From Methyloversatilis sp. (GTDB taxonomy: Bacteria; Pseudomonadota; Gammaproteobacteria; Burkholderiales; Rhodocyclaceae): a stretch of DNA of 64,000 bases. Both the position numbers and the translations under genes were made by a program. This document shows, piece by piece, positions 9,684 through 56,344 of the stretch. The number at the start of each line of letters is the position of its first letter. Position 1 is the stretch's first letter. The notes below the pieces were generated by a model, which saw nothing but the letters and a program-made list of their open reading frames with translations, did not search any database and had not been told where the DNA came from. The DNA lies in the NCBI GenBank assembly GCA_016791045.1, contig JAEUNO010000015.1, forward strand, positions 1 to 64,000, written 5' to 3'.

Positions 9684-11251
9684 TCAGAAGGCCCAGCGCG
9701 CCTTCAGCGAGGCAGTCTGGATCAGGAAGCCGGTGCGGTGTTCGGCGTCATAGCGCGCGGTGACTTCCATGCCGGCGAGCGTCTGGTAGACCGCGCCGAT
9801 GCCGCCGTTCGCGGTCCACGGGCTGGGGTCGATGCCATAGGTGACAAAGGCTGCACACCCGGTGCGCCGGCGAATGCCGCGGTGATCGCCGCGCGCTCGT
9901 TGATCGTGTCGTAGCCGACGCCCAGATTGGCGGTCAGCGCGAGCTGTTCGCTCATCCGGTGCGCCAGCTTCCCGCCTGCGCCGAGCACCAGCGCGGCCGT
10001 GCTGCGGTCATTCACGTCCAGATTCAGCAGGCCGGCACCGGTTTCGGTGTAGGCCTTGTCGCGGATCCAGGTGTAATCGATGCGCACCGATGGCGTGACC
10101 GTGGTGTGCGCAGCCAGCGTGTAATTGCGCCCGATGCCGACGCCGACGTGTGCCGTGTGGCTGGTGTAGTCCGACTGCGCGACCGCGTTGTTGAACGCCA
10201 TGACGCGGCGGCCCTTGTTGTCATTGCGGCCGACATCGACCTGGAAGTTGATTTCGGTACGCTCGTTCAACGCATAGCTGCCGTAGCCGATCAGCTGGAA
10301 CACGTCGACGTCGGCCCTCTGCGCCGCCACGGTCGATTTGCTGCCGATATTGCTCTGCGCGTAGGCCACGGCGGCGCCGATGCGCCACGCGTCCGACAGC
10401 GCGCCATCGACACCGGCGGCAAGACCATCGGTATCGGCGCGGTAACCGGCCACCCCACCGCGAGTGTCCTGGTCGGCGCGCGAACCGAAAGGTTTCAGCC
10501 AGAAGTGCCGGTCGCCGATGAAGCCGTCGCCGGACGACATGCCCCGATGCCCCTCGATGCGCGCCTGGATCAGGCGGTTGATGCCCGACAGCGCGCTGTT
10601 GGCGGCCAGCTGCGCGCTGCCGGTGAGCAGTGGCAGCGTCTGCGTGACGGCACGCGAAATATCGTCGTCGCTGCCGGCAAACAAGGCGCCCAGCGCGGGG
10701 CTGGAATCGATGGCACCTGCCGCACCCACGGCCGGCGTGTTGCCCATGTTCTGTGTGGCCGTCAGCACCGGATTGGAAGGCGCCGGAGGCGGCGCATTGT
10801 TGTAGTCGTTGCAGGTGGCGGCCAGCGCAACATTCACGCCACCGTTCGGCGTGTAGCTGGTGTGTACTCCGGTGTTGCCCGGAATGGGTGTGGTCGTGCT
10901 GCCCTGTTCGAAATCGAGGAACAGTACGTTGCCCGCATTCATGAACAGGGCCTCGTAAAAGGTGCGGTTGCTGCCGCACACCACATTGCTGTACTGGCCG
11001 AAGTTCATCACGTCAGCCTGCGTGAACAGCGCGCTGGTCACGTTGCCGATGGCCAGATTGGCCGCGGTGACCGTCGAGTTGCCGAAATCGACCGTCATCG
11101 TGCCGGTGAGCACATCACCGTTGGTGAAGGTTGTTTCCGGGCCGGCGCTGAACGTGTAATTCACGACCTGTGCGATGGCCGGCGCTGGCATGCAGGCCAG
11201 GACGGCAGCGATGAAAAGGGCTGAAAGCGGCGTGTGAACGGGTGTGTGCAT
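9684..11251 (-). CDS. Autotransporter outer-membrane beta-barrel protein, frameshifted near its C-terminus
   Basis: Starts MHTPVHTPLSALFIAAV with a signal peptide ending AIAQ. A short passenger follows, then a barrel of about 280 residues from roughly FWLKPFGSRADQD. As written the frame runs to 9722, but its last 50 residues are non-native (Pro/Arg/Ser-rich). Removing one CA from CACA at 9854-9857 (plus strand) restores GAAFVTYGIDPSPWTANGG through to LKARWAF and a stop at 9684-9686. A C-terminal Phe is the normal barrel end. So there is a 2-base duplication, either real or an assembly error. Restored length is 521 residues. Confidence 0.8.
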
Positions 11252-49075: not shown

Positions 49076-51091
49076 TCAGAAGTCGAGCCTTGCGCGCAGC
49101 CACGCCAGCCGCCCCGGCTCGTTCACCCTCTCGGTGAGCACCAGCCCGGCCGGCTGAAAGCCGCCTGTCCGGCTGATGTGTTCGGCGTAGGCGCGGTCGA
49201 ACAGGTTGTCGACACCGGCGCTCAGCACGATTCCCTGCATTGCCTGCCAGCTCAGCATCACGCGCACCGTGGCGAAGCCCGGCGTCTCGCCGAGGTCGGT
49301 ACCGAGCGCATTGCCGAAGCCCACATGAACGCGGTCCTGCCGCTGCACCAGCCGTACACCGCCGCTCACGCTGAACGTGGGGCGCAGGTACTCGAGTCCG
49401 AGCCGCATCTCCGCCGGCGAGGTCTGGGCGAGCGGAACGTCCTGCGTGAGGTTATCGGCCCGCGTCCAGGCCACGGAACCCACCGCGTGCAGATCGCCGA
49501 CGACGCGCAGTCGGGCGTCCAGCTCGGCACCCACGCGACGCGCGTCCACATTGCGGGCGGTGATGCCCTGTTCGGCGAGGATGAAATCGCCGATCCGGCT
49601 GTGGAAGACATTCACGGCGACATGTGTGTCGCCGGCGCGCCAGTTCAGCCCGGCGTTGATTTCGCGGTTGGTTTCGGCGTCGATGTGGAAGGCGGCGAAG
49701 CTTGCCCGCTCCAGATTGGAGGCGGCGCGCTGTGCGACACCGAAGGCGATGAAACCGTCGAGCGACGGATCGATCTGCCACTGCAGCCGAACGAAGCCGG
49801 AGCGCAGCGTTTCGGTACGTTCCTCGCCACTGCCCGGCAAAAGCTGGGTGCCGAGGAAGTTGCGCAACTCACCTGCCTGAGTATGAAGGCGATCGACGCG
49901 CAGGCCGGCGCGCAGTGTGACGGTGTCGCGACGATGGGTCATTTCGGCGAACGCACCCTGCGCGCGCGCGTCGAGGCGGTAGAACGAAGTCAGCGACGCG
50001 GTCGACAGCGGACAGTTGTCGGTACCGGTGAAACAGGTACGCGTGGTGCGGAAGTTGTCGCCTTCATGCGCGTCGTCGCGCACATCGGCGCCGGCGAGCA
50101 CATCGGTGGCCGCATCGAGGTCGAAACGTGCACTCAGGCGGGCGGTGCGGCCGGTGTAGTCCTGGCGCATCAGCAGCGTGGGGAACTGGTCCAGAAAGCC
50201 GGGCACCAGTTCGACCGGCTTGATCGGGCGATAGGTGTAATCGTCCATCAGGTGATTCACGTGCTGCCAGCGCAGCGAGAACTCCAGCGCCGACAGCGTG
50301 CGGCCGGGTCTGCGATGGGTGAGTTTCGCGCCCCACACCGAGCGCCTGAAGCGCGTGCCGTCCATGTGGAAGGCCGGAAAACCGGCGATCGCGTCGCCAT
50401 TCTCGATATCGACTTCCACGTCAGTGTCCGGGCCGAGCCGCGCACCGGCGGCAAGCGTTGTCGAATGCCTCGAGTAGAAGGACTGGAAGCGGCGTCCCGC
50501 GCCATCGCGGTAATCATCGGAATCGTTGCGTACGGCACCGGCCCGCAGCCAGAACTGCTCGTCCGACCAGCTGTATTCAGCCGACAGGTCAAGCCGGTCG
50601 AACCCGCTGCGACCGACGGCCGCCCTCAGCCGGCTGCCCTGCCCCGGCTCCGGCGGCAGGCGCTGCACGCGTACCTGACCGGACAGCGCCGGACCGAACT
50701 GCACGGTATTCGGTCCCTTGACCACGGTCAGCACGTCATAGCTGTCGGGCTGCAGGTAGGAGGTGGCCGGGTCCATGCCGTGATTGCAGGCGGCATCGGC
50801 GACGGCGTCGTTCACGACGATGGGCAGGCGCGCGCCGCCGAGCCCGCGCAGGAAGGCGCTGCCGGCCGTGCCGCCGACCCGGCTGATGTTGAAGCCGGTG
50901 ATGTCACGCAGCAGCTCCGACGCATCGCTGTGCGAACGCGGCACTTCACGCAGGTCGACCACGGTGTCGGGCGCGCCATCGTTGCGCGTGGCGGTGATGC
51001 TGACCGTCGGCGCGACCGTCTCTGCGGCGGCAGCGGTCGACCACAGCAGCAGGCACAGGCCGCGCGCCCGCAGGGAAAGCTTGGATGTCAT
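49076..51091 (-). CDS. TonB-dependent copper receptor-like protein
   Basis: 671 residues, signal peptide ending AAAAE. The plug carries features of the copper receptor family (OprC/NosA): RGLGGARLPIVVNDAVADAA, CNHGMDPATSYLQPDSYDVL and TVVKGPNTVQFGP. The C-terminal barrel ends with Phe (LRARLDF). Imports copper or a copper complex across the outer membrane with TonB energy; specificity is inferred from family. Last gene of the minus-strand locus that begins at 56344. Confidence 0.9.
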   Translation of the reverse strand: MTSKLSLRARGLCLLLWSTAAAAETVAPTVSITATRNDGAPDTVVDLREVPRSHSDASELLRDITGFNISRVGGTAGSAFLRGLGGARLPIVVNDAVADAACNHGMDPATSYLQPDSYDVLTVVKGPNTVQFGPALSGQVRVQRLPPEPGQGSRLRAAVGRSGFDRLDLSAEYSWSDEQFWLRAGAVRNDSDDYRDGAGRRFQSFYSRHSTTLAAGARLGPDTDVEVDIENGDAIAGFPAFHMDGTRFRRSVWGAKLTHRRPGRTLSALEFSLRWQHVNHLMDDYTYRPIKPVELVPGFLDQFPTLLMRQDYTGRTARLSARFDLDAATDVLAGADVRDDAHEGDNFRTTRTCFTGTDNCPLSTASLTSFYRLDARAQGAFAEMTHRRDTVTLRAGLRVDRLHTQAGELRNFLGTQLLPGSGEERTETLRSGFVRLQWQIDPSLDGFIAFGVAQRAASNLERASFAAFHIDAETNREINAGLNWRAGDTHVAVNVFHSRIGDFILAEQGITARNVDARRVGAELDARLRVVGDLHAVGSVAWTRADNLTQDVPLAQTSPAEMRLGLEYLRPTFSVSGGVRLVQRQDRVHVGFGNALGTDLGETPGFATVRVMLSWQAMQGIVLSAGVDNLFDRAYAEHISRTGGFQPAGLVLTERVNEPGRLAWLRARLDF

Positions 51092-51145: not shown

Positions 51146-51814
51146 TCAGCTGCGTCGGGCCGCGCGGCGCGCCGCGAAAGCCGTCAGGCCGAGACCACCC
51201 AGCAGCAGCGCCCAGGTCTGGGGTTCCGGTACCGGCGGGAGGCTCACTTCGTGCTCGAACGCCACGGCGACGCGGATCCGGTCACGGAACGGATCACCCA
51301 TGCCGGGCATCGCGACGTGGTGATACATCGACCCGTTCAGGTTCAGCCAGAGGCTGTTTTCGTCATGCGAAAAATGCAGCGACGGTTCGAAGCCCTCGAT
51401 CAGATTGCCGCTCTGGCCGCTGACGTAGCCGGTATTGCTGATCGATGCGGATTCGATCGGTTCGAGCACGTTGGCAGCGTCGAACACCCGGAAACCGATG
51501 AATTCGGGCGAACCGAAATTCATGAAATCGATGCTGCCGGTGTAGGTGAATGCCATTCCGCTGTCGAAGATGTCCACGCTCCACGAAGACGTACCGGCTG
51601 AATTGAGGCTGATCTTCGGTATTTCGACGGCATCGCTGACGCTGACCACGAAGGTCTGCAGCGCCTGGAAGCCCGCACCCAGTCCGAGGTCGAGACCGTA
51701 CTGGACGGTGACGGCATGGTCTTCGAAACTGGCGTGCGCACGCGCGGCCGAGGGCGCGAGTGCAGCGGCTGCTGCGATGCCGGCGACGAAACTGCGTGAA
51801 AGTGCATTTCTCAT
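51146..51814 (-). CDS. PEP-CTERM protein of the copper-like locus (mature N-terminal His)
   Basis: 222 residues. Signal peptide MRNALSRSFVAGIAAAAALA ... SAARA is followed by HASFEDHAVTVQYG, so cleavage would leave an N-terminal His with another His at position 7. Exosortase signal at the end: VPEPQTWALLLGGLGLTAFA plus ARRAARRS. The middle region has LHFSHDENSLW and GSMYHHVAMPGMG, also His-rich. AAGGA precedes the ATG. A metal-binding surface protein is inferred from sequence and context. Confidence 0.82.
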   Translation of the reverse strand: MRNALSRSFVAGIAAAAALAPSAARAHASFEDHAVTVQYGLDLGLGAGFQALQTFVVSVSDAVEIPKISLNSAGTSSWSVDIFDSGMAFTYTGSIDFMNFGSPEFIGFRVFDAANVLEPIESASISNTGYVSGQSGNLIEGFEPSLHFSHDENSLWLNLNGSMYHHVAMPGMGDPFRDRIRVAVAFEHEVSLPPVPEPQTWALLLGGLGLTAFAARRAARRS

Positions 51815-51845
51815 GATGGGTATTCCTTTCGTTCGAATGTGTGAG

Positions 51846-51868
51846 GCGGATCGGGCAGCCCGATCCGC
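51846..51868 (-). other. Intergenic hairpin, 10-bp arms
   Basis: GCGGATCGGG-CAG-CCCGATCCGC is a perfect stem with a 3-base loop between the two PEP-CTERM genes. No T-tract on either strand. A likely transcript-stabilising or processing structure. Confidence 0.75.
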
Positions 51869-51895
51869 GTGCTTGAGCCGGCAGTGCGAATCCAC

Positions 51896-52753
51896 TCAGA
51901 TCAGCGCGGCGCGGCGGCGCGCGATCAGCCCGATCAGGCCGAGGCCGGCGAGCATCAGCGCCCAGCCTTCGGGCTCGGGCACGGCGGTGACCGACAGCGC
52001 CGCAGAAAAGCCGCGCTGCGCCGTGCCGGCATCGAAATCGACGTACGGGCTGGCGTAGCGCGCGCCACCCACGATCAGGCTGTAGCTGCCGGCGGCCAGC
52101 GTGAAGCGGGCCGAGACGGTGCCGTCCGCGCTGCCGTCGCCGGTGATGTCGATCACCTTGTCACCGTTGACGTCGACGCCGGCGCCATCCACGGCCTGAC
52201 CGATGTAGGCCAGCCGGGCCGACGCCCAGCCGGACGCGCCCACTTCGGCCAGCTTGTTGCCGAGCCAGAAATCGCCGCTGGCGTTGAAGGCGCCCTCTCG
52301 CGTCCCGTTGATGCCGGCGCCGAGGTAGTTCGGATTCAGCGTGGGCAGGAAGCCCGGGTGATGGGCGAGGTAGTCCGGATGGTCGCCGCCTTCAAAGGCC
52401 GCTGCCGGTGCCAGTCCGCTGTACAGCGAAAAGCCCGGGATCAGGTCACCGAGGGCGGTCAGCGTGGTGCCGCCACTGAGGTAGTCGAAGCTCGCGGCGC
52501 TGACCGTCAGCGTGACGACCGATGCTTCGGTCAGCGTGAACTTTGCCCAGCGCAGGCGGTGGCTGTCACCCCAGTCGGCGTCGGCGCCATCGGCCCAGCC
52601 AAAATCGGACGTGACGCGCTGGTTCGACAGCGTCCAGGTATTGCCCGTCTGCACGCCATTGGCGAGGAAGTCACGCGTGCTGTAGCTGACATGGGCGAAG
52701 GCGGAAGCGGAAAACAGGCCGGCGAGCGCGGCCACGATGATTCTGTTCTTCAT
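51896..52753 (-). CDS. PEP-CTERM protein of the copper-like locus (mature N-terminal His)
   Basis: 285 residues. Signal peptide MKNRIIVAALAGLFSASAFA then HVSYSTRDFLANG, again giving an N-terminal His after cleavage. Beta-rich body with GGDHPDYLAHHPGFLPTLNP (His cluster), and C-terminal VPEPEGWALMLAGLGLIGLI plus RRR. AAGGAGAG precedes the ATG. Role unknown; a surface metal binder is inferred from context. Confidence 0.83.
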   Translation of the reverse strand: MKNRIIVAALAGLFSASAFAHVSYSTRDFLANGVQTGNTWTLSNQRVTSDFGWADGADADWGDSHRLRWAKFTLTEASVVTLTVSAASFDYLSGGTTLTALGDLIPGFSLYSGLAPAAAFEGGDHPDYLAHHPGFLPTLNPNYLGAGINGTREGAFNASGDFWLGNKLAEVGASGWASARLAYIGQAVDGAGVDVNGDKVIDITGDGSADGTVSARFTLAAGSYSLIVGGARYASPYVDFDAGTAQRGFSAALSVTAVPEPEGWALMLAGLGLIGLIARRRAALI

Positions 52754-52876
52754 GAAAAGTACTCTCCTTGATACGTGCAGGTGCGCTGCGCAGTGCTGGC
52801 TTCAGCGCACGGAAGCGCACGACATCCATCCTCAGGCAGTAGCCGGAGGTCGGCGCCGGACGATTTGGCAGGTGAA

Positions 52877-53251
52877 TCAGGAGAGCGGTGGTGGCGCGCG
52901 CGGCTGCCAGTGCGCACCGGTTTCTATCGGATGCCCGGTATCGATGGCGCGCACGATCGGCGCGTCGGACTGACCGGACTCGGTGAGCGGAAAGGGCAGC
53001 GGCGGGGGCGACAGCGCGCCGGCCGGGACGCACAGCGCGCAATGCTGTCCGTGCGACACCGTGTTGCCCGGGCCGCCACGGATGTCGCCGGCGCCCGCTG
53101 TCGACACGCTGCAGATTTCGTCGAATGGCGTGGCGACGCGAACGGCGCCACCCAGCGACGCCATGACGAACTGCAGGACGAACGCGCACAGCAGCACCCA
53201 CGCCAGCTTGAGCCGGCGTGCGGTACGGGGTGGGCGCACGTATCGGCTCAC
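52877..53251 (-). CDS. DUF2946-family protein
   Basis: 124 residues from a GTG four bases after the YcnI-like stop. Membrane or signal segment LKLAWVLLCAFVLQFVMASL, then EICSVSTAGAG and HGQHCALC. This EIC...HCxxC Cys/His pattern, shared with the DUF2946 protein at 55982, is a likely metal site. DUF2946 genes often neighbour copper genes. Pro-rich C-terminus. Confidence 0.8.
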   Translation of the reverse strand: MSRYVRPPRTARRLKLAWVLLCAFVLQFVMASLGGAVRVATPFDEICSVSTAGAGDIRGGPGNTVSHGQHCALCVPAGALSPPPLPFPLTESGQSDAPIVRAIDTGHPIETGAHWQPRAPPPLS

Positions 53252-53255
53252 GGGT

Positions 53256-53780
53256 TCAATGATGCGGCCGGGATTCCGCCGGCAGCAGATCGAGAACGGC
53301 CGCCGGCATCTTCACATCACGCATGCCCTGGCCTTCGGCGGGAATCTGCGACCAGTCGTTCGCGCCCTGCTCGCACTGCTGCATCACCTTGAACCAGCGC
53401 CGTCCGGGCGCATCCGGCAGCTTCATCATCAACGCGAACTCGTCGTAGTGCGCATCAGACAGCGGGCCGCCGCTCCAGCTGACCTCGACCACCGCTTCGC
53501 CGACCGGCTTGCCGTGATGCATCAGCGGCTGCGCCAGCTTTTCGGTGCGCACGGTGACGGTCCAACCCGGCTTCACCATGGGTTTCACGCTGGCCATCGG
53601 CTCGGGCAGACGTATCGTGATGGCGGTGGTCGGCGAGCCTTCGCAGCCGTGGCCGACGCGGAAGGTGCCCTTGTAGTAGCTGCCGGCCGGCGCCGTCTGC
53701 TGCTCAAGCACGACATGCGCCGCGCTCACGACCGGCAGACCGAGCAGCGCGAATGCCAGGCCGTTCAGATATCGATTCAT
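53256..53780 (-). CDS. YcnI-like (DUF1775) copper-binding protein
   Basis: 174 residues. Signal peptide MNRYLNGLAFALLGLPVVSA (cleaved before HVVLEQ), so the mature protein begins with His. PAGSYYKGTFRVGHGCEGSP and PGWTVTVRT are DUF1775 features. In YcnI of Bacillus, copper(II) is held in a monohistidine brace using the N-terminal His; the same His is predicted here. Starts one base after the upstream TonB receptor stop. Confidence 0.88.
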   Translation of the reverse strand: MNRYLNGLAFALLGLPVVSAAHVVLEQQTAPAGSYYKGTFRVGHGCEGSPTTAITIRLPEPMASVKPMVKPGWTVTVRTEKLAQPLMHHGKPVGEAVVEVSWSGGPLSDAHYDEFALMMKLPDAPGRRWFKVMQQCEQGANDWSQIPAEGQGMRDVKMPAAVLDLLPAESRPHH

Positions 53781-53781
53781 G

Positions 53782-55881
53782 TCACATTTTCCATTCGATG
53801 CCGGCATAGACGGCGCGGCCGTCGCCCGGCAGATAGACATTGCGTGCCCCGGCTGCCAATGCGCTGAAGTCGCGCACGACATTGGTGCTCGCGGCATAGC
53901 GGCGGTCGGACAGGTTGCGCCCTTCGATGAACCACGAGAACTGCCTGCCGACCTGCTGCTGGACGCGCAGGCCGAAGAGGGCGTAGTCGTCGGCGAACTC
54001 GGTATTGGCCATGTCGACCGCGTAGCGCTGCGGCGACCATTCGGTGGTTGCGGCGATCTTCAGCGGACCGCCGGGCGCGGCATGGAAGCGGTAGCCCAGC
54101 TCGCCGCGGAACAGCGTGCGCGGCACACCGGGCAGCCGGTTGTCGCCGAACAGCGGGTCGTTGTCGAAGCGGAAGTCGTTGTACAGCAGCGCCTGACGCC
54201 ATTCGAAGCCGGCGCCGAAGCGGCCGTCGGCCGCGAATTCGATGCCGCGATGGATCGTCTTCGGCACGTTCAGCGTGGTGCTGACCGGTGCGCCGCCCAG
54301 ATTGAGCGTGTAGGCCAGCAACTCGTCGGTCACCCGGGCGTGGTAGAGCGCGAAGTCGTAACGCCCCCATGCAAAGTCGCCGCGGCTGCCCGCTTCCCAG
54401 GTGGTCGCACGCTGCGCACGCAGCGAGTCGATCACCGTCGCCCCACCGGTCAGCTCGCCGAATGACGGCGGCTCGAAGCTGCGCGATACGTTGGCGAACA
54501 CCTGCATTGCTGGAGACACGTCGTGGCGCACGCCGAGTTTCGGGCTCCAGCCGTCGAAGGTGCGCGCGAAACTTTCGTCGCTGCCGGCGCAGGCCAGCGG
54601 TCCGCCGGTGAAGCACAGGTCGCGGCTCTTGCGGCGCGCATGCGTGTACTGCGTGCCGACCACGGCAGTCCAGGACGGTGCGAAGGTGAGCTGGCTTTCG
54701 ACGTAGCCTTCGAGATTCTGTGCGGTCGTGTCGAGCTTGTTGGTACGCCCGCCGCGACGGCCCGCGACATTCACGAAGCGATCATCGTCGGTGTCGCCGC
54801 GGGCGGCGCCGACGCCGGCAACCAGACGATGCGGCAAGCCGGCCAGCGTGGCTTCGGACACGATGCGCAGTTCGGCGCCGAAGTCCTTGCTGCGCTGGTC
54901 GAGCACCTGGAAGATCGGGTGGAACAGGTCCTTGTCGACGTAGTAGGCCGACAGTTCGACCCGCAGGCCGTCACCGGCCAGCCACACGGTGCGGTTCGAC
55001 ACGCGCCACAGGTCGATGTCGCGCTTCTGGTCACCGGTGATGTTGGCCAGCGCAGCCTGGCGCGGATTGGCCTGCAGCTGCGCGCGCGTCAGATTGCCCG
55101 GCAGTTCGGAGTCGCTTTTCGCGGCCTGCATGAAGAAGCGGGTTTCCAGCGAAGGCGCGATGCGCAGCCCGATATTGCCGACGACGCGCTGGGTGTCCTG
55201 CAGCGCATGGTCGCGAAAGCCGTCCTGCGTGAAGCTGGACAGGCTGAGATAGCCATCGATGTCGCCGGCGACGAAGCCGGTGGCGAGCTGGCTGCGCAGA
55301 TACCCGAAGGCGCCGGTTTCCGCTCGCACGGTCACGCGGGGTGCGTCGTGACCGGTCGGCGACACGTAATTGATGGCCCCGCCGAGGCTGCTGGCGCCGT
55401 ACTGCAGCGCATTGCCGCCACGCCACACCTCGATGTAGCGCGTGGCGAGCGGCTCCAGCACCTGGAAGTCGCCGCCGCCATCGGCCTGGTTGATCGGCAC
55501 GCCGTCCTGCATCAGCTTGATGCCGCGCAGGTGGAAAGTGCGCTGCAGGCCGGAGCCGCGGATCGACAGGCGCGATTCTTCCGAACCGAAGCGCGGCTGC
55601 ACGAACACACCCGCGCTGTAGCCGAGCGCGTCCTGCAGGGTGGACACACGCGCGTCGCGAAAGGATTCGGCATCGATGACCGAGGCACCGCCGGGCGTCA
55701 GCGCCATGGCGGCCCGGGCGGATTCGAGGTCGGCCAGCGTCGTGGACAGGATGCGCCGCGCTTCGATGCGCTGCTCCGGCAGCTGAACCATGGTGTCGGA
55801 CGCCGTCGCAAGGCTGCTGACGGCAAGGGCGAGGGGCGACAGCGCGAACAGGCGCGCTGCGGCCACGAGGGTCGATCGCAT
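53782..55881 (-). CDS. TonB-dependent outer-membrane receptor
   Basis: 699 residues. Signal peptide ending ATAS; a plug domain with LQDALGYSAGVFVQPRFGSE, IRGSGLQRTFHLRGIKLMQD and VWRGGNALQYGASSLGGAIN; the barrel ends AGIEWKM. Context (YcnI-like and DUF2946 neighbours) suggests uptake of copper or another metal complex; it lacks the specific motifs of the copper receptor at 49076. Overlap-type spacing with the downstream YcnI-like gene indicates coupling. Confidence 0.88.
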   Translation of the reverse strand: MRSTLVAAARLFALSPLALAVSSLATASDTMVQLPEQRIEARRILSTTLADLESARAAMALTPGGASVIDAESFRDARVSTLQDALGYSAGVFVQPRFGSEESRLSIRGSGLQRTFHLRGIKLMQDGVPINQADGGGDFQVLEPLATRYIEVWRGGNALQYGASSLGGAINYVSPTGHDAPRVTVRAETGAFGYLRSQLATGFVAGDIDGYLSLSSFTQDGFRDHALQDTQRVVGNIGLRIAPSLETRFFMQAAKSDSELPGNLTRAQLQANPRQAALANITGDQKRDIDLWRVSNRTVWLAGDGLRVELSAYYVDKDLFHPIFQVLDQRSKDFGAELRIVSEATLAGLPHRLVAGVGAARGDTDDDRFVNVAGRRGGRTNKLDTTAQNLEGYVESQLTFAPSWTAVVGTQYTHARRKSRDLCFTGGPLACAGSDESFARTFDGWSPKLGVRHDVSPAMQVFANVSRSFEPPSFGELTGGATVIDSLRAQRATTWEAGSRGDFAWGRYDFALYHARVTDELLAYTLNLGGAPVSTTLNVPKTIHRGIEFAADGRFGAGFEWRQALLYNDFRFDNDPLFGDNRLPGVPRTLFRGELGYRFHAAPGGPLKIAATTEWSPQRYAVDMANTEFADDYALFGLRVQQQVGRQFSWFIEGRNLSDRRYAASTNVVRDFSALAAGARNVYLPGDGRAVYAGIEWKM

Positions 55882-55981: not shown

Positions 55982-56344
55982 TCAGGCGTGCCGGGGCGGC
56001 GCGCGCGGAGACGCCGCAATCGGCGTGAAGGTCGGGAAATCTGGCGCGAGCTGCGCCGGTGGCAGCTCGGATTCGGCATGGCGCGCAAACACCGCGTCAG
56101 ACGCAGGCGCGGGCAGCGCGAAAGCGGTCTGCGCCATGCACCATGGGCAATGCCCCGGCTTGACCGGTTGCGGTGTGCCGTCCTCGGACAGCACCTGGAC
56201 GCCGAATACGGTGCAGATTTCCGTCATCGCGGTCGGGTCGACCGACTGCTGCCAGCGCATCAGCGTCGGCAACAGCGCCTGCGCGCAGACCGCGAAGATC
56301 GCGATCAGCAGGGTCAGGCGGAAATGGGTCCGGAAGGCATTCAT
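55982..56344 (-). CDS. DUF2946-family protein
   Basis: 120 residues. N-terminal helix MNAFRTHFRLTLLIAIFAVC as a signal anchor; EICTVFGVQVLSEDG and PGHCPWCMAQT give the same EIC...HCxxC pattern as the second copy at 52877. First gene of the minus-strand locus running to 49076, divergent from pcnB. A metal-related role is inferred from family context. Confidence 0.82.
   Translation of the reverse strand: MNAFRTHFRLTLLIAIFAVCAQALLPTLMRWQQSVDPTAMTEICTVFGVQVLSEDGTPQPVKPGHCPWCMAQTAFALPAPASDAVFARHAESELPPAQLAPDFPTFTPIAASPRAPPRHA

Follow-up and report, generated by a model that had tools for sequence, protein, structure and literature searches.

CorA (Methylomicrobium album) and MopE (Methylococcus capsulatus) are methanotroph surface copper collectors, CorA with a Trp(kynurenine)-x-His pair and a second copper histidine (H114). 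In Bordetella, the DUF2946 protein CruR senses copper and stalls by means of its CxxC and RAPP motifs, 45 residues apart in Bp2923, and CruR operons (leader, bfrG, bp2921) have OprC-type receptors and YcnI among the genes listed downstream (PMC9426467). OprC itself carries a CxxxM-HxM copper site (PMC8610252), and DUF1775 a mono-histidine copper brace in B. subtilis (PMC8424229). Here, we analyze a locus on the minus strand of a 64,000-nucleotide stretch of Methyloversatilis sp. (contig JAEUNO010000015.1, positions 1 to 64,000; hereafter the window), which holds two PEP-CTERM proteins (P3 and P2), a YcnI-like protein (Y), two TonB-dependent receptors (T1 and T2), and two CruR-type leaders (D and D2). 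A preliminary description of this DNA had proposed that P3, P2 and Y all mature with an N-terminal histidine and that both PEP-CTERM proteins belong to a new class of His-brace metal binders. The explanation we favor, with a probability of about two in three, is a CruR-led copper-acquisition operon in which P3 and P2 are surface collectors feeding T1, with the N-terminal histidine of mature P3 (His1) as a new ligand. Each component is of a known kind, and what appears new is how they are combined and the change in the CorA-type site; among the matches listed in the open-access literature, no paper joins PEP-CTERM proteins with CorA, MopE or OprC.

Conservation of the predicted N-terminal histidine

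We first consider the three signal-peptide junctions, which were verified as proposed: PSAARA-HASFEDH in P2, SASAFA-HVSYSTRD in P3 and VVSAA-HVVLEQ in Y. A custom rule for signal-peptide cleavage, which asks for a positive n-region, a core that is hydrophobic on a hydropathy scale and small residues at both -3 and -1, places the cut directly before the histidine in all three proteins. Applied to the remaining 46 PEP-CTERM proteins encoded in the genome (48 matches minus P3 and P2), the same rule gave a site in 45, at least one of which is spurious (C16:48714, where the C-terminal anchor was chosen), and His at +1 only once, in a doubtful case (ASA-HQVSAADN) with VSA-ADN as an alternative cut. 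Three neighboring genes with His at +1 exceed this genome background, though the case had been picked from 64 kb by the preliminary description. Other cuts are possible by sequence in P2 (AHA-SFEDH) and Y (VSA-AHVV); P3 offers no good alternative, and its mature form very likely begins with histidine. Another PEP-CTERM protein of the genome (locus L073, G000:C43:16200-18800) reads AQAQHVHA near its cleavage region.

Scanning bacterial and archaeal genomes with six patterns, one of them DADWGDSH, gave 39 P3 loci from Betaproteobacteria, Gammaproteobacteria and Verrucomicrobia, the closest homologue found being 96% identical and also from Methyloversatilis. For the conservation check, the query run against 45 loci (these 39 and six further stretches) was cut back to the P3 body, beginning at mature residue 31 and ending at the tail; neither the signal peptide nor His1 could therefore influence which members were chosen. 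This search returned 50 open reading frames, which, after removal of three duplicates and addition of the window P3, form 48 rows. The His1 column is His in 47 of them; the remaining row, a Methylomonas paralogue (L051, minus strand), is displaced by a long insertion and has, by eye, a predicted mature start that is also His. For P3, the expected conservation of the N-terminal histidine is thus borne out. A second histidine, mature His45 (precursor His65, codon 52559-52561), is present in 48/48 rows, a constancy that, like that of Trp41, is partly built in because DADWGDSH was a scan pattern, which has to be counted against our reading; members in which this stretch is spelled differently (L035, L048, L051 minus, L057, L059, L061) retain His45 as well. 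Trp33, Asp35, Asp38, Asp40, Gly42 and Ser44 are further constant in a 40-row alignment. At the sequence level, P3 hence displays both features of a bis-His brace, a predicted N-terminal His and a second constant His. His1 is probably a metal ligand, with copper as the presumed metal, and its pairing with His45 in a brace is a more tentative proposal. In two Verrucomicrobiaceae metagenome-assembled genomes (L031:9953-14776 and L047:9953-14635), a P3 domain with terminal His opens a frame of ~1,600 codons.

P2 forms a separate family. Profile comparison (hhalign) detects no relation between P2 and P3 (E 0.11), and the N-terminal position of P2 is His in 9, Gln in 2 and neither in 2 of 13 aligned rows. 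The N-terminal histidine is therefore replaced or lost in 4/13 homologues, contrary to what had been claimed for P2, and the grouping of both PEP-CTERM proteins into one His-brace class fails. The His-brace interpretation survives for P3 alone, where His1 and His45 are constant in a copper-operon setting. The conserved metal-like feature of P2 is instead SM[YW]H...MGD, with S136, M137, H139, M146, G147 and D148 invariant in the 13 rows. Nitrosovibrio Nv17 (L044:10983-13181) has both P3 and P2 in two copies, and neither P2 copy carries the N-terminal His.

At eight loci, mostly labelled Verrucomicrobia, P3 lies near an exported protein with a predicted mature start H-[DE]-H (L025:1937-2692, with relatives in L029, L032, L034, L036, L038, L043 and L050); in one locus, a Gln may precede this motif, and the family has a weak choice-of-anchor M match. 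Terminal-His exported proteins of unrelated families therefore recur around P3.

Layout of the locus and its copper setting

The genes are transcribed in the order D2, T2, Y, D, P3, P2, T1, separated by 100, 1, 4, 123, 81 and 54 bases, respectively:

55982..56344, minus strand: D2, DUF2946 protein, CruR-type leader heading T2-Y (PF11162, E 1.1e-8; CPWC-x44-RAPP near the C-terminus; 100 bp before T2)
53782..55881, minus strand: T2, TonB-dependent receptor (PF00593, E 1.3e-43; PF07715, E 2.2e-17)
53256..53780, minus strand: Y, DUF1775 (YcnI-type) exported protein (PF07987, E 2.1e-45; predicted mature start His22, codon 53715-53717)
52877..53251, minus strand: D, DUF2946 protein, CruR-type leader heading P3-P2-T1 (PF11162, E 4.2e-8; CALC-x43-RAPP; 123 bp before P3)
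51896..52753, minus strand: P3, PEP-CTERM protein with a predicted CorA/MopE-like fold (predicted mature start at precursor His21 = His1, codon 52691-52693)
51846..51868: hairpin in the P3-P2 gap (3-base loop on a perfect 10-bp stem, without a T run)
51146..51814, minus strand: P2, PEP-CTERM protein of the second family (predicted mature start His27, codon 51734-51736; SM[YW]H...MGD motif)
49076..51091, minus strand: T1, OprC-type TonB-dependent copper receptor (CxxxM from residue 102, HxM from residue 280)

D and D2 each head an operon block, and their CxxC and C-terminal RAPP motifs are 43-44 residues apart, close to the spacing in Bp2923; the present locus differs from the described CruR operons by its PEP-CTERM genes, of which the main text of PMC9426467 makes no mention. 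Homologues of P3, P2 and T1 occur together in 11/39 P3 loci, and a CruR-type leader precedes P3 in 10/39, all within these 11. As a background, the leader pattern was found on reverse strands twice in 643,375 bases. M. universalis EHg5 carries two such leaders in tandem (L020:9208-9369 and 9723-9881) with no T2 or Y match at the locus; one of them may be left over.

T1 is homologous to OprC (6fok, E 5.6e-68) over nearly its whole length, and the CxxxM-HxM site is complete in 11 of the 12 aligned receptors, T1 included. It departs from OprC and NosA in sitting behind two PEP-CTERM genes and in falling under the TIGR01778 cut-off. T2 reached no equivalog threshold in an NCBIfam scan. The PEP-CTERM tails of P2 and P3 are recognized by PF07589 (E 3e-6 and 1.6e-6, respectively), and the genome has two exosortase genes.

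Y had been described as YcnI-like, which its PF07987 score of 155 (cut-off 25 bits) confirms. It matches the structure 3esm (E 1.8e-4), and in this single alignment its His1 and a Trp are aligned, while a Gly occupies what the alignment indicates as the position of the BsYcnI Glu ligand. Y thus appears to lack this Glu, which is also missing from most remaining, mainly proteobacterial, DUF1775 sequences (PMC8424229, section 8). The N-terminal His is kept in all four homologues examined (L017, L018, L019 and L021). The analogy with YcnI is loose, and the closest relatives found for P3 are CorA and MopE; neither P3 nor P2 matched DUF1775 in the Pfam scan.

The role of the operon is very likely copper acquisition, and the locus is most likely a copper-repressed acquisition operon. 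Under copper scarcity, both the block headed by D2 (T2-Y) and the one headed by D (P3-P2-T1) would be expressed, the hairpin at 51846-51868 perhaps tuning expression of P2-T1. After export, P3 and P2 would be anchored through their PEP-CTERM tails; with exosortase directing them to the surface, they would gather copper there for T1. P2 would bring a His/Met motif of its own, its N-terminal His being incidental or auxiliary.

Proposed relation of P3 to CorA and MopE

The best fold matches of the predicted P3 model are CorA and MopE, and it is this match, together with a profile comparison with three PF18252 proteins (L136-L138), that links P3 to them. The idea that P3 or its relatives could be tied directly by sequence to the solved CorA and MopE was rejected, as searches of the PDB listed neither. 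Taking W-T-H of L136 as the presumed counterpart of CorA residues 62-64, judged from the motif, P3 aligns Asp43-Ser44-His45 with the Trp(kynurenine)-x-His pair: The His is retained and the Trp is not. There is no clear second CorA His, the nearest residue to H114 being loop residue 111, which is not in register in the alignment. P3 differs further by its constant N-terminal His and its PEP-CTERM tail, the latter not being found in L136-L138. The genes of the window that were examined at this locus include no MauG-like di-haem gene. CorA-like and MauG-like genes adjoin P3 in some Nitrosomonas-type loci; at L023, L028, L037 and L060, a MauG-like di-haem gene and a PEP-CTERM gene whose product has a W-A-H motif lie close to P3, and parts of both relatives are visible at L044. 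Two of the W-A-H PEP-CTERM proteins were scanned and match Cu_bind_CorA (PF18252) just below its cut-off (E 2.6e-5 and 1.6e-5).

On the predicted model, P3 looks like a distant CorA cousin with a rebuilt metal site. This divergent CorA/MopE fold would retain His45 as a ligand, with Asp replacing the Trp/kynurenine, and mature His1 would act as a new ligand through both amine and imidazole, perhaps pairing with His45 in a His brace. It is conceivable, at somewhat less than an even chance, that the family as a whole consists of copper proteins sorted to the surface by exosortase, their kynurenine site rebuilt as a His1-His45 brace that needs no MauG-like Trp-oxidizing partner, and that these proteins load an OprC-type receptor within a CruR-controlled operon.

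Several observations weigh against our reading. The template modeling scores of the CorA/MopE match are 0.41-0.46 of the query, unrelated beta-sandwich domains come next at E 4e-5 and below, and the confidence of the model (predicted local distance difference test) averages 76 and is about 72 over residues 1-10. With E values as high as 10 admitted, P3 profiles run against the PDB found neither CorA nor MopE, and Cu_bind_CorA touches only 2/40 P3 members (best E 0.037), with no match in the window P3. As for the operon, 28/39 P3 loci are without the P2-T1 partners, some of them on short contigs; T1 scores 362 bits against TIGR01778 (E 6e-108), below the cut-off of 472; and the L044 receptor has lost the Cys and first Met of CxxxM-HxM.

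Competing explanations and significance

A CorA/MopE-fold copper protein could also use a site composed of His45, the loop His/Tyr near 111 and the acidic DxxDxD, with His1 serving only folding or signal-peptidase efficiency. Residue 111 is His in 27, Tyr in 9 and Asn in 4 of the 40 rows, the three Asp are constant in 40/40, and an acidic calcium site is also described in CorA (PMC3912023). However, His1 is invariant whereas residue 111 varies, and since only a generic A-x-A with variation precedes His1, cleavage alone needs no His; we thus regard this explanation as unlikely. More improbable still is that P3 binds another metal, Ni or Zn, via its N-terminal His, the copper setting being confined to oprC loci. 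Precedents exist among the signal-strapping binders (DUF4198, DUF6702, Ang-1 and Ang-2), which are exported and use an N-terminal His ligand, DUF4198 proteins next to TonB receptors binding Ni (PMC12537917), although the main text of that paper is without PEP-CTERM, exosortase or DUF1775. ZepA, a PEP-CTERM exoprotein of metal uptake with TonB receptors in its gene context and, in Anabaena, His at mature position 1, handles zinc (PMC10957091). The many P3 loci without an OprC partner would fit such a role as well. Nevertheless, neither P2 nor P3 contains the ZepA His cluster motif, H-x(2,9)-H-[FY]-H, CruR leaders occur with OprC in 10 loci, and the Nitrosomonas-type loci carry the CorA-like and MauG-like genes.

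The pair of an N-terminal His and a second constant His is also the sequence signature of oxidative enzymes with bis-His braces, and P3 might act at the cell surface like a lytic polysaccharide monooxygenase or a peroxygenase. This we consider very improbable, as the top fold matches of P3 include no enzyme and the locus setting is one of uptake, not of polysaccharide breakdown.

Extracellular copper gathering before OprC-type uptake is poorly known in Gram-negative bacteria. PEP-CTERM proteins are numerous, with few functions known, and a copper-collecting P3 would give one family a defined job. It would also tie the methanotroph collectors CorA and MopE to far wider bacteria, including ammonia oxidizers, Aquabacterium and Verrucomicrobia, and would provide a natural example of a single fold that has exchanged a Cu(I) site assisted by kynurenine for one built on an N-terminal His.
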